From IMG/VR virus record IMGVR_UViG_3300028025_004744, positions 1-52,466 of that record: a stretch of 52,466 bases of DNA; one strand, written 5' to 3'. The position numbers were made by a program, and so were the translations under genes. Below, in pieces: positions 4,000 through 48,514 of the stretch; the stretch's first letter is position 1; every line of letters begins with the position of its first letter. The stretch comes from a virus. The notes under the pieces were generated by a model, which saw nothing but the letters and a program-made list of their open reading frames with translations, was not told where the DNA came from and searched no databases.

Positions 4000-6126
4000 T
4001 TATGCTTCGATGTAGATCTTGTGTACTTTAACAGATGTATCTGCTGATGCTCCAGTTACCTGCAGAAGAACGTTTCCTGAAGAATAAACTGCATTTGTTG
4101 TTCCAAGTTCAGCGTTGCTAATTACATCAGCATACTCTGTTACGTAAACATCGTTAGTTCCGTTAACTGCAACAAGCATTTCAATTACTTCAATGTCATT
4201 GCCCTTTTTCATTTGAACAATATACTTAGCAGCAGAATATGTTGATGCTGACCATGTATCAATTGTAGTTGCTGAAGTTCCAGCAGTTGCTAGAGCAGAA
4301 CCAACAAGAGCATCTGCAAAAGCAATGCTTGTCGCTGCTGCTGCACCAAGAGTTGGTGTAACAAAAGTTGGGCTATTAGTAAATGCTACTGTTCCAGACC
4401 CTGCTTCATCAGTTAATGCTGCTGCAAGGTTTGAAGAAGATGGTGTGGCAAGGAATGTTGCTACGCCAGTTCCAAGACCTGAGATACCAGTTGCTACTGG
4501 AAGACCAGTTGCATTTGTAAGTGTTGCTGCTGATGGAGTTCCAAGATCAGGAGTTGTTAGTGTTGGTGATGTCAGAGTCTTGTTTGTAAGAGTCTGAGTT
4601 CCAGTTAATGTTACTACTGTTGAATCAATATCAAGAGTGTTTCCAGTCTTGTCTAATCCTGTACCAGCAACAATTTGTCCAAGACCAGTAAACTGTGTGA
4701 AGACAAGTGCTGTACTACCAATTGTAACTGTACCGTTATTTGTTAGTGTAAATCCTGAGTCAGCGTTTACTGTTCCTTGCTCTACGAATACCGCAAAGTT
4801 TGCAGTTACTTCTGCACCCTCATCTGCATCTGTAGAACGATCTGGAGCACCAGATGCCTTAACTACATAGATACCATTTTGTGAACCAGTTGACTGATCC
4901 TTAACAAGAACACGATCTCCAGTAGCAAGAGTTACACCGTCAAGTGTGTCTCCATTTTCAAGATCAGATGCTAGTGTTAGGTTTGCAGTTGTGGCTGCCT
5001 TTACAGACGCTTTCCAGTCAATTCCTTGAACTGTTGTGTCTACATAAGATTTTGTTGCTGCATCTGTTCCATCAGTTGGTGTTCCAAGACCTGTAATTTT
5101 GTTTGTGCCCATTGCAATCGCACCAGTCATTGTTCCACCAGCAAGTGCTAACTTATTTCCAAGATCTGTTGTAAGTCCTGAAATCTTAGATTGATCAATC
5201 GCTGCTGATGCATTAATGTCGCCATTAACAATTGTTCCATCTAGAATCTTTGCTGAAGTTACTGCTCCGTCTGCAATTTTTGCTTCTGTTACTGCGCCGT
5301 TTACAATCTTTGCTGTTTCTACAGAATCTGAAGCAAGTTTAGCAGCAGTTACGTTAGCATCTTTAATCTTTAATGTTTCAACTGCATCTGTACTAAGTTT
5401 TGCTGCTGTAACTGCACTGTCTGCAATTTCGGCTGTATTTACTGCTGAATCTGCAATCTTAGCATTTGTAACTGAGTTTGCAGCAAGTTTTGCATCTGTT
5501 ACGTTAGCATCAAGAATCTTTGCTGTTGTAACTGCATCTGAAGCCAACTTTGCTGCTGTAACATTTGAATCAAGAATCTTTGCAGTTGTTACTGCATCTG
5601 CAGCAAGTTTATCAGCAGTTACATTTGCATCTGTAATTTTTGCTGTAGTTACTGCACCTGCAGCAAGTTTTCCTGTAGTTACGTTTAAATCTGTAATTTT
5701 TACGGTAGTTACTGAATCTGAAGCAAGCATTGTTGCTGTAACTGTACCAGTATCACCAGTTGTAACTACTGTACCTGTTACGTTTGGAAGTGTAATTGTG
5801 TTATCTTGAGTTGGGTCTACTACTGCAAGTGTAGTCTCATAATCATTTGCTGTAGCACCTTCAAAAACAATGCTTGATTCAAATGAACCAACTGCTTGTG
5901 GGGCTGCCCACTTAACACCTGTTGCTTCGTTTGAGTCTGCTGTTAAAATATAATTATTGCTACCAACGCCAAGGCGTGATATTGCATTATCTGCAGTACC
6001 AACTAGTAAATCACCTTTTGCATCTGCAATTTTCTTTGTAAGAATATCGTGGCCTTCAACGGTTGCGGTTGCTCCCTCAACTACTAATCCAGCCTTTACT
6101 CTAAAATCTTTTGTTACTGTTGCCAT
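4000..6126 (-). CDS. Repeat-rich tail fibre
   Basis: This 708-aa structural fibre has four visible parts. Residues 1-130 are an attachment region with an FEGATANDYETTL unit also found in the 1131-aa fibre. Residues about 135-310 hold roughly eleven short repeats of the type AKITDANVTADKLA (about 15 aa), a rod-like shaft. A middle part has ATKSYVDTTVQGIDWK and GDRVLVKDQ, typical of phage tail fibres. The C-terminal beta domain resembles the whole of the 146-aa neighbour. Ribosome site AAGGAG. The segment around [13 protein letters not shown] to [11 protein letters not shown] closely matches the long fibre, suggesting module exchange. Confidence 0.9.
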   Translation of the reverse strand: MATVTKDFRVKAGLVVEGATATVEGHDILTKKIADAKGDLLVGTADNAISRLGVGSNNYILTADSNEATGVKWAAPQAVGSFESSIVFEGATANDYETTLAVVDPTQDNTITLPNVTGTVVTTGDTGTVTATMLASDSVTTVKITDLNVTTGKLAAGAVTTAKITDANVTADKLAADAVTTAKILDSNVTAAKLASDAVTTAKILDANVTDAKLAANSVTNAKIADSAVNTAEIADSAVTAAKLSTDAVETLKIKDANVTAAKLASDSVETAKIVNGAVTEAKIADGAVTSAKILDGTIVNGDINASAAIDQSKISGLTTDLGNKLALAGGTMTGAIAMGTNKITGLGTPTDGTDAATKSYVDTTVQGIDWKASVKAATTANLTLASDLENGDTLDGVTLATGDRVLVKDQSTGSQNGIYVVKASGAPDRSTDADEGAEVTANFAVFVEQGTVNADSGFTLTNNGTVTIGSTALVFTQFTGLGQIVAGTGLDKTGNTLDIDSTVVTLTGTQTLTNKTLTSPTLTTPDLGTPSAATLTNATGLPVATGISGLGTGVATFLATPSSSNLAAALTDEAGSGTVAFTNSPTFVTPTLGAAAATSIAFADALVGSALATAGTSATTIDTWSASTYSAAKYIVQMKKGNDIEVIEMLVAVNGTNDVYVTEYADVISNAELGTTNAVYSSGNVLLQVTGASADTSVKVHKIYIEA

Positions 6127-34420: not shown

Positions 34421-34792
34421 ATTAAGGTTTGTAGCAAATGTGGGCTTAACTTAGATAAGTCCCAGTTTTCTCCATCTTCTGGTGGAAAATATTTAAGGCC
34501 AGAGTGTAGGTCTTGTGCTTCCAAATTGGCAAAGCAAAGGCTAGAACTAAGAAAAGTCTGGGGCTATCCAGAAGAAGATCACATCTGCCCTATCTGTTTA
34601 AAGAATGAAGAAGAACTTAAGGGTACTGGAGGAAATGCCAGTATCTGGGTAGTAGATCATGACCATATCACTAATAGTTTTAGAGGTCATATCTGCCATA
34701 ACTGTAACCGTGGTCTTGGTGTATTCCAAGATAATGTTGATAGATTAGAAAGAGCAATTAACTACTTAAGCACCAGTAGCCAAGTTGGTTAA
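34421..34792 (+). CDS. Endonuclease VII-like nuclease, likely AUU start
   Basis: The classical core is HICPICLKNEEEL, VVDHDHITNSFRGHICHNCN and LGVFQDNVDRLERAINYL, matching the recombination endonuclease VII family (Holliday-junction resolvase type). A TTG at 34526 would start inside the protein; upstream in the same frame lies VCSKCGLNLDKSQFS...CRSCASK, the N-terminal ribbon expected of the family, reachable only from an ATT directly after the previous stop (AAGG 9 nt upstream). The 3' end overlaps tRNA-Met. The total would be 123 aa, short but complete-looking. Confidence 0.78.
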   Translation: MKVCSKCGLNLDKSQFSPSSGGKYLRPECRSCASKLAKQRLELRKVWGYPEEDHICPICLKNEEELKGTGGNASIWVVDHDHITNSFRGHICHNCNRGLGVFQDNVDRLERAINYLSTSSQVG

Positions 34793-34843
34793 GGCACCGA
34801 ACTCATAATTCGGCTATCGTAGGTTCAAGTCCTACCTGGTGTA
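34770..34843 (+). tRNA. tRNA-Met (CAT)
   Basis: Acceptor GCACCAG/CTGGTGT, anticodon loop CTCATAA, canonical T-loop TTCAAGT. The first 23 nt overlap the endonuclease VII-like gene. CAT could also be an Ile tRNA if modified to lysidine; the sequence alone does not decide. Confidence 0.85.
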
Positions 34844-34847
34844 CTAA

Positions 34848-34921
34848 ACATCTGTAACTCAGTTGGTTAGAGTACCTGCCTTATATGCAGAGAGCCGAAG
34901 GTTCAAGTCCTTCCAGATGTA
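34848..34921 (+). tRNA. tRNA-Ile (TAT)
   Basis: Acceptor ACATCTG/CAGATGT, anticodon loop CTTATAT (TAT reads AUA), T-loop TTCAAGT. The top anticodon-stem pair is a C-A mismatch. UAU anticodons are rare in bacteria, so the tRNA may serve AUA-rich phage genes. Confidence 0.85.
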
Positions 34922-34925
34922 CTAC

Positions 34926-34996
34926 GGACCTAAAGCATTAAAGTGATGCTCAGGACTTTTAATCCTGAGAAGAAGGAGCATTACCTTCTAGGTCTA
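34926..34996 (+). tRNA. tRNA-Lys (TTT)-like with non-canonical elbow
   Basis: All four stems pair: GGACCTA/TAGGTCT, GCAT/ATGC, CAGGA/TCCTG and GAAGG/CCTTC, with anticodon loop CTTTTAA. But the D-loop is TAAAGTG (no GG), the T-loop is AGCATTA (no TTC) and position 8 is A. The residues that normally form the tRNA elbow are therefore missing, although the cloverleaf is intact. Confidence 0.68.
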
Positions 34997-35000
34997 CTAA

Positions 35001-35072
35001 ATCTCTGTAACTCAGCGGAAGAGTGACACCCTTCTAAGGTGTAGGTCGTAGGTTCAAATCCTACCAGAGATG
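35001..35072 (+). tRNA. tRNA-Arg (TCT)
   Basis: Acceptor ATCTCTG/CAGAGAT, anticodon loop CTTCTAA, T-loop TTCAAAT, G discriminator. Reads AGA. Confidence 0.9.
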
Positions 35073-48441: not shown

Positions 48442-48514
48442 CTGGTCTGGCAGGTCACGATCCTGCGACTTCCGAATTAACAGTTCGGCACTCTACCAAC
48501 TGAGTTACAGACCA
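48442..48514 (-). tRNA. tRNA-Asn (GTT)
   Basis: Acceptor TGGTCTG/CAGACCA, anticodon loop CTGTTAA, T-stem GCAGG/CCTGC. The T-loop is ATCGTGA, with A54 and T58 reversed from the usual T54-A58. Only 4 nt from tRNA-Gly. Confidence 0.88.

Follow-up and report, generated by a model that had tools for sequence, protein, structure and literature searches.

The window (the whole 52,466-base virus record analysed here, G000) contains a tRNA array at 34770-35072 that is flanked by genes for an endonuclease VII and a glycosyltransferase and has a lysine tRNA gene as its third tRNA. The array, the landmarks of this gene and an altered tRNA elsewhere in the window are as follows.

34770-34843, plus strand: tRNA-Met(CAU), ordinary elbow, same array as tRNA-Lys (ARAGORN/Rfam)
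34848-34921, plus strand: tRNA-Ile(UAU), ordinary elbow, same array (ARAGORN/Rfam)
34926-34996, plus strand: 71-nt tRNA-Lys(UUU) gene, CCA not encoded, tertiary contacts apparently rewired
34933-34934, plus strand: positions 8-9 (AA), A8 matched by U14 (34939) in place of U8-A14
34939-34945, plus strand: D-loop UAAAGUG, with U14 (34939), A18 (34942), G19 (34943) and G21 (34945)
34956-34962, plus strand: canonical anticodon loop CUUUUAA, anticodon UUU at 34958-34960
34977-34983, plus strand: T-loop AGCAUUA, with A54 (34977), G55 (34978), C56 (34979), A57 (34980) and U58 (34981)
34996, plus strand: discriminator A73, the lysine identity base (A73 in 22 of 23 lysine tRNAs of the G55 class described below)
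35001-35072, plus strand: tRNA-Arg(UCU), ordinary elbow, same array (ARAGORN/Rfam)
48442-48514, minus strand: tRNA-Asn(GUU), partly rewired, T-loop AUCGUGA with the A54-U58 exchange, G18G19/U55C56 kept (Rfam)

From 5' to 3', the lysine gene reads GGACCUA, AA, GCAU UAAAGUG AUGC, U and CAGGA CUUUUAA UCCUG in its first half, and AGAA, GAAGG AGCAUUA CCUUC, UAGGUCU and A in its second. All stems are paired (acceptor 7 bp, D 4 bp, anticodon 5 bp, T 5 bp), as an initial annotation of the sequence had stated for the four helices, and the strand folds into a cloverleaf at -24.2 kcal/mol (z -3.6). It scored 44.0 bits over the full Rfam tRNA model (RF00005, positions 1-71; E 3.6e-6), above the gathering threshold of 29; the other six tRNAs of the window scored 62.6-69.7 bits. 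ARAGORN, run on the window, did not report it. An intact anticodon loop with one of the two lysine anticodons (UUU or CUU) is combined with A73, the sequence features of tRNA-Lys.

G18, G19, U54, U55, C56 and A58 are described as tRNA hallmarks in all domains (PMC7912444); the canonical elbow has residue 18 intercalated between 57 and 58 and in contact with 55, and a pair between 19 and 56 (PMC4810234). Instead of G18G19, U55C56 and U54-A58, the window tRNA-Lys has A18G19, G55C56 and A54-U58. The initial annotation had reported loops devoid of the usual elbow residues and an A replacing U8. The A8 is read directly in the gene, the D-loop does lack GG and the T-loop is AGCAUUA; the elbow is not absent, however, as G19 and C56 are kept and A8 is matched by U14, A18 by G55 and A54 by U58, hence apparent substitutes rather than losses. 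The gene fits the class defined here, in which A18 occurs together with G55 and G19-C56 is kept, and with it the window holds five ordinary, one partly rewired and one fully rewired tRNA. The annotation also drew attention to AGCATTA in both the D-arm and the T-loop; this repeat is real and yet coincidental, given that relatives have a GCTT/AAGC D stem while their T-loop stays AGCATTA. A kissing interaction between D-loop AGUG and T-loop CAUU, seen by eye, was rejected because the loops keep the classical 18-55 and 19-56 contacts across families.

The window phage is AT-rich, with AAA and AAG among its commonest codons (3.6% and 2.7% of codons, respectively, in 18 window ORFs), and would thus have a use for a lysine tRNA. 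A WhiB-family gene (PF02467; 43134-43418, minus strand) and a GP88-like gene suggest that the host may be an actinobacterium. In a megablast against cultured phages, the 10 kb surrounding the tRNA-Lys gene matched nothing. A PNKP-type HAD phosphatase is encoded 2 kb upstream of the array (PF25109; 32394-32840, plus strand). A link to tRNA repair was considered and dropped, as seven related records yielded no T4-type RNA ligase, although this search was weak because its PF09511 control matched nowhere.

Relatives of the lysine tRNA and covariation of the elbow

Relatives were collected by an exact T-arm scan and through homologues of the adjoining glycosyltransferase, which together gave hundreds of loci. 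By BLAST, the tRNA-Lys was identical in seven other viral loci, and many more carried linked changes. At the matching array position, three loci (L151, L152 and L195) have the identical gene and a fourth (L158) has the same loops with a compensatory change of A3-U70 to G3-C70. Other relatives mostly lack a lysine tRNA at this position, and the comparison with relatives that the annotation had proposed found none with ordinary loops at the same locus. Its further view, that the gene is not dead and its unusual loops are under selection, is borne out by the recurrence of these loops in the four loci and by the strict covariation described below; unconstrained loop and stem changes, as expected of a pseudogene, were not found among the relatives.

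The window subfamily comprises 45 distinct sequences, with pairing at nearly every stem position and many double changes. Its T-loops are mostly AGCAUUA, AGCGUUA or GGCAGUA, on a D-loop whose constancy partly reflects selection by the search pattern (the T-loop was left free in the D-arm search). The CUUUUAA anticodon loop is kept in 38 of the 45, C55 or U55 stands beside A18 in six, and an acceptor-end wobble G1-U72, unusual for tRNA-Lys, occurs in 31. Three members have a shortened anticodon arm with elbow and acceptor intact (L049, 157-215; L077, 2570-2628, minus strand; L067, 7362-7424). Their arms read CAGACTAGTCTG or have a 6-nt loop, GTTTAA, so these are not normal decoding tRNAs and not every member of the subfamily can translate.

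To follow the contacts beyond lysine, we used a cloverleaf finder, written for this analysis, that scores stems only and ignores loop sequence. It demands intact stems and misses the tRNAs whose variable arm is long (Leu, Ser, Tyr); at the threshold used, shuffled sequence gave 6 false positives per 1.5 Mb, compared with 404 real hits. The survey of 692 loci (6.1 Mb) yielded 1506 tRNAs, or 876 after clustering at 80%. For the unselected set, tRNAs matching any search pattern were removed, and only 7-nt D-loops, whose numbering is unambiguous, were used for positions 18 and 55.

Among the 233 unselected tRNAs with 7-nt D-loops, the combinations at 18 and 55 were G-U (177), A-G (44), G-C (8), C-U (2), U-U (1) and U-G (1), with neither A-U nor G-G observed. 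Among 8-nt D-loops, GG was accompanied by UC in 238 cases; without GG, the T-loop had GC in 41 and UC in none. The other contacts behaved likewise: 19 and 56 are G-C or, in its place, A-U across the 876 clustered viral-locus tRNAs, 54 and 58 are U-A (653), A-U (57) or G-G (22), and 8 and 14, in the unselected table, are U-A (669), A-U (32), U-U (18) or A-A (15), all frequencies being from a sample that favours loci retrieved through rewired tRNAs and not population estimates. Mutual information between 18 and 55 was 0.78-0.84 bits at three clustering levels, compared to at most 0.10 in shuffles (Fisher 1e-55), 0.91-0.94 for the known 15-48 pair and 0.04-0.20 for control pairs. Related tRNAs in these counts are not independent, though the many different combinations of exchanges speak for pairwise constraints that act separately.

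In a prospective test, tRNAs were chosen by their D-arm alone. Among the matches listed, the A18 form TAGCTCAGNAGNAGAGC was accompanied by G55 in 81 of 83 and the A19 form TAGCTCAGNTGANAGAGC by U56 in 96 of 99. Each form has at least as many matches in viral contigs as were listed, so both are common there. The rules are not absolute: some tRNAs combine A18 with C55 or U55, and some have A-A or U-U at 8 and 14. The window tRNA fits every one of them (A8-U14, A18-G55, G19-C56, A54-U58). Judged from sequence, then, the elbow is not lost but rewired, with predicted matching substitutes taking the place of normally universal tertiary contacts.

Distribution in phages and bacteria

Rewiring is not confined to lysine and spans nearly all isotypes. 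Arrays consisting entirely of G55 tRNAs occur in three contigs (L415, L419 and L426) and in two viral records, the 131-kb G007 and the 275-kb G009; in a third record, the 83-kb G008, nearly all tRNAs have G55. In several large phages, every detected tRNA is of the A18-G55 type. The array L734 of G007 has G55 in 28 of 28 tRNAs and covers most class I isotypes; the array L739 of G009 has it in 24 of 24, a whole set here meaning every tRNA that the finder detected, with Leu, Ser and Tyr outside its reach. One tRNA of L419 combines U19 with A56 (D-loop AAATTATTA, T-loop TGAGAGT). In three fully rewired phages, 30 proteins encoded close to the arrays were compared with Pfam, which identified HNH, Radical SAM, TROVE/Ro60 and ordinary phage genes, and no tRNA nuclease. 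The TROVE/Ro60-like protein, of an RNA-binding ring family, adjoins the fully rewired array of the 275-kb record (L739, 17340-19016, minus strand).

A D-arm search of bacterial genomes found all-rewired arrays in three of 51 genome contigs, two from one Verrucomicrobiales MAG (L415 and L419; PLIU01000290.1 and PLIU01000120.1) and one from a Sphingobacteriales MAG (L426; JAGVEE010000325.1). Four other examined loci of the Verrucomicrobiales MAG carry ordinary tRNAs, so the all-rewired contigs are probably phage contigs binned with bacteria. In 249 Pseudomonadota genomes, a control that covers one phylum in depth and not bacteria at large, the A18 D-arm matched three times, and on inspection no tRNA followed any of the matches; the G18 form was present in 203 of the 249. 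All 40 scored tRNAs from bacterial loci fetched with the tRNA family were standard, and eight non-standard tRNAs belong to loci of the viral record G008.

Cultured phages carry such tRNAs too. A tRNA-His(GUG) with the loops AAAAGTA/GGCGGTA (A18-G55) lies at 5997-6067 of the loci L450 and L451 from Streptomyces phages Warpy and LilMartin, annotated in the former phage and unannotated in the latter. Erythrobacter phages XM05 and vB_EliS-L02 have a rewired tRNA-Val, located at 5650 and 5916 in L741 and at 4279 in L743. Elbow types differ between the tRNA-Lys(UUU) orthologues of two Erythrobacter phages, and Synechococcus phage BUCT-ZZ01 has a tRNA-Lys with A8-U14. These cultured examples make the idea testable at the bench.

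Charging, elbow geometry and the cause of rewiring

Identity elements are kept in the G55 class. The G3-U70 pair of alanine is present in 8 of 8 (12 of 876 in other isotypes), and the expected discriminators are found for glycine (U73, 14 of 16), asparagine (G73, 9 of 9), aspartate (G73, 5 of 5), tryptophan (G73, 5 of 5) and lysine (A73, 22 of 23), as is C1-G72 for proline (12 of 13). This agreement with the anticodons argues strongly that G55-class tRNAs are charged by their cognate synthetases. We put at roughly 80% the probability that the gene at 34926-34996 encodes a working phage tRNA-Lys(UUU), a member of a phage class that is widespread and has had its tertiary contacts exchanged in matched sets. 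Host LysRS would most likely lysylate it, and it would then serve translation in an AT-rich phage rich in AAA and AAG.

The elbow itself would be built with A8-U14 for U8-A14, A18-G55 for G18-Psi55 and A54-U58 for U54-A58, with G19-C56 retained. In UGNRA loops, pairing of the loop G with an A from outside gives a composite GNRA-like fold (PMC2258182). The rewired T-loop may act like these loops of rRNA and riboswitches, with A18 as the inserted outside A; pairing of A18 and G55 as in a GNRA tetraloop would preserve the L-shape. The combination of A18 with U54-G55-C56-R57-A58 fits the UGNRA plan, and the window tRNA would follow the same plan with A54-U58. With neither U54 nor U55 in its sequence, a tRNA of the window type cannot receive T54 or Psi55 and should not be a normal substrate of TruB, for which GUUYRANYC is known (PMC7912444), or of TrmA. 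Rewired tRNAs may escape factors that read the canonical elbow.

Why phages rewire is a separate question. Neutral compensatory drift, in which weak constraint and tolerated one-step intermediates lead between elbow solutions of equal fitness and the rewired form brings no benefit of its own, has a real chance of being the cause, if somewhat less than an even one. Canonical, partly and fully rewired tRNAs are mixed within single phages, the window included, and the differing elbows of the Erythrobacter phage orthologues fit as well; these mixed sets lean towards drift or gene exchange. Drift must nevertheless account for the change of U55 beside C56 to G55 in every detected tRNA of L734 and L739, and such complete sets, hard to reach gene by gene, lean towards a lineage-wide cause or an ancient switch.

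We entertain, tentatively, the alternative that these are translation tRNAs whose elbow was selected because some factor of host or phage origin (a nuclease, modifying enzyme or surveillance system) reads the GG/UUC elbow and spares the rewired one. The bases removed (U54, U55 and G18) are those read or modified at the elbow (PMC7912444), the change spans nearly all isotypes and occurs as complete sets, the rewired form was not found in the Pseudomonadota sample, and there are known cases of phage tRNAs acting against tRNA-cleaving defences (PMC10264068, PMC11555353). Against it, no such factor was found, including among the 30 array-near proteins. The resistance to one tRNA-cleaving defence that the initial annotation proposed is not supported, as nearly all isotypes are rewired and the anticodon loop is canonical; a lysine-specific nuclease was rejected because of the same spread over isotypes. 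It also seems unlikely, though conceivable, that some phages run an elbow-coded orthogonal tRNA pool, in which the whole set has A18-G55 for G18-Psi55 and translates, while a phage- or host-made factor destroys, modifies or withholds only canonical-elbow tRNAs.

The annotation's other suggestion was a decoy. A non-translational role of this kind, in which the tRNA outline would suffice to occupy LysRS, a modification enzyme or a nuclease as a decoy or sponge, is improbable. The three members without a normal anticodon arm, which keep elbow and acceptor, would suit it, but the conserved CUUUUAA loop, the agreement of identity elements with anticodons and the presence of rewired tRNAs in nearly all class I isotypes do not. 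A decaying pseudogene with loops mutated ahead of stems is very improbable, for despite the low Rfam score and the ARAGORN miss, relatives carry identical or compensatorily changed copies, and the lack of A18 with U55 or of G18 with G55 among unselected 7-nt-loop tRNAs already contradicts it.

A working tRNA with exchanged contacts, our preferred reading, would matter in several respects. Elbow contacts are regarded as fixed across life, and in some phages nearly every tRNA detected is rewired. Natural covariation at 18-55, 19-56, 54-58 and 8-14, nearly complete A18-G55 sets included, would show that the elbow can be rewired with charging identity kept. As tRNA finders and modification and processing enzymes assume canonical elbow bases, it would account for phage tRNAs missed by annotators and provide natural tests of what TruB/TrmA, RNase P, the CCA enzyme and the ribosome need of the elbow. 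It would also point to the tRNA elbow as a new front in the conflict between phage and host.

Comparison with known systems

With canonical bacterial tRNA-Lys(UUU) (RF00005), the window tRNA shares the cloverleaf, stem lengths, UUU in CUUUUAA, A73, G19-C56 and G53-C61; it differs in having A8-U14, A18-G55 and A54-U58 for U8-A14, G18-Psi55 and T54-A58, and has no U54 or U55 to modify. With the UGNRA T-loop (R1 lonepair triloop) of rRNA and the TPP riboswitch, it shares the position-2 G and an outside inserted A (PMC2258182), a likeness implied by the sequence pattern; in contrast, it lies in a tRNA elbow and is closed by A54-U58 instead of U-A. Work on phage tRNAs and defence concerns anticodon loops and tRNA supply (PMC10264068, PMC11555353). 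Like the anticodon-nuclease-evading phage tRNAs (PMC10264068), the window tRNA is encoded in a phage array with a possible defence context, but its anticodon loop is unaltered, and the changes of its class lie in the elbow and are not isotype-specific.

Searches of the open-access literature turned up no description of covarying elbows in phage tRNAs, A18-G55 and A19-U56 included. The Steinberg group is said to have selected D- and T-loop variants in vivo. Among natural tRNAs, tRNA-Pyl lacks the GG and TPsiC consensus and has a one-nt acceptor/D linker, a 6-bp anticodon stem, a 3-nt variable loop and CUA, whereas in the window tRNA the linker (8-9) is 2 nt, the anticodon stem 5 bp and the variable loop 4 nt, with UUU as the anticodon. 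The staphylococcal peptidoglycan tRNA-Gly and the Bacillus cereus tRNA-Other are non-translational and lack the canonical D- and T-loop bases (GG, TPsiC); in the phage class, by contrast, the missing bases are replaced by covarying ones, across nearly all isotypes.
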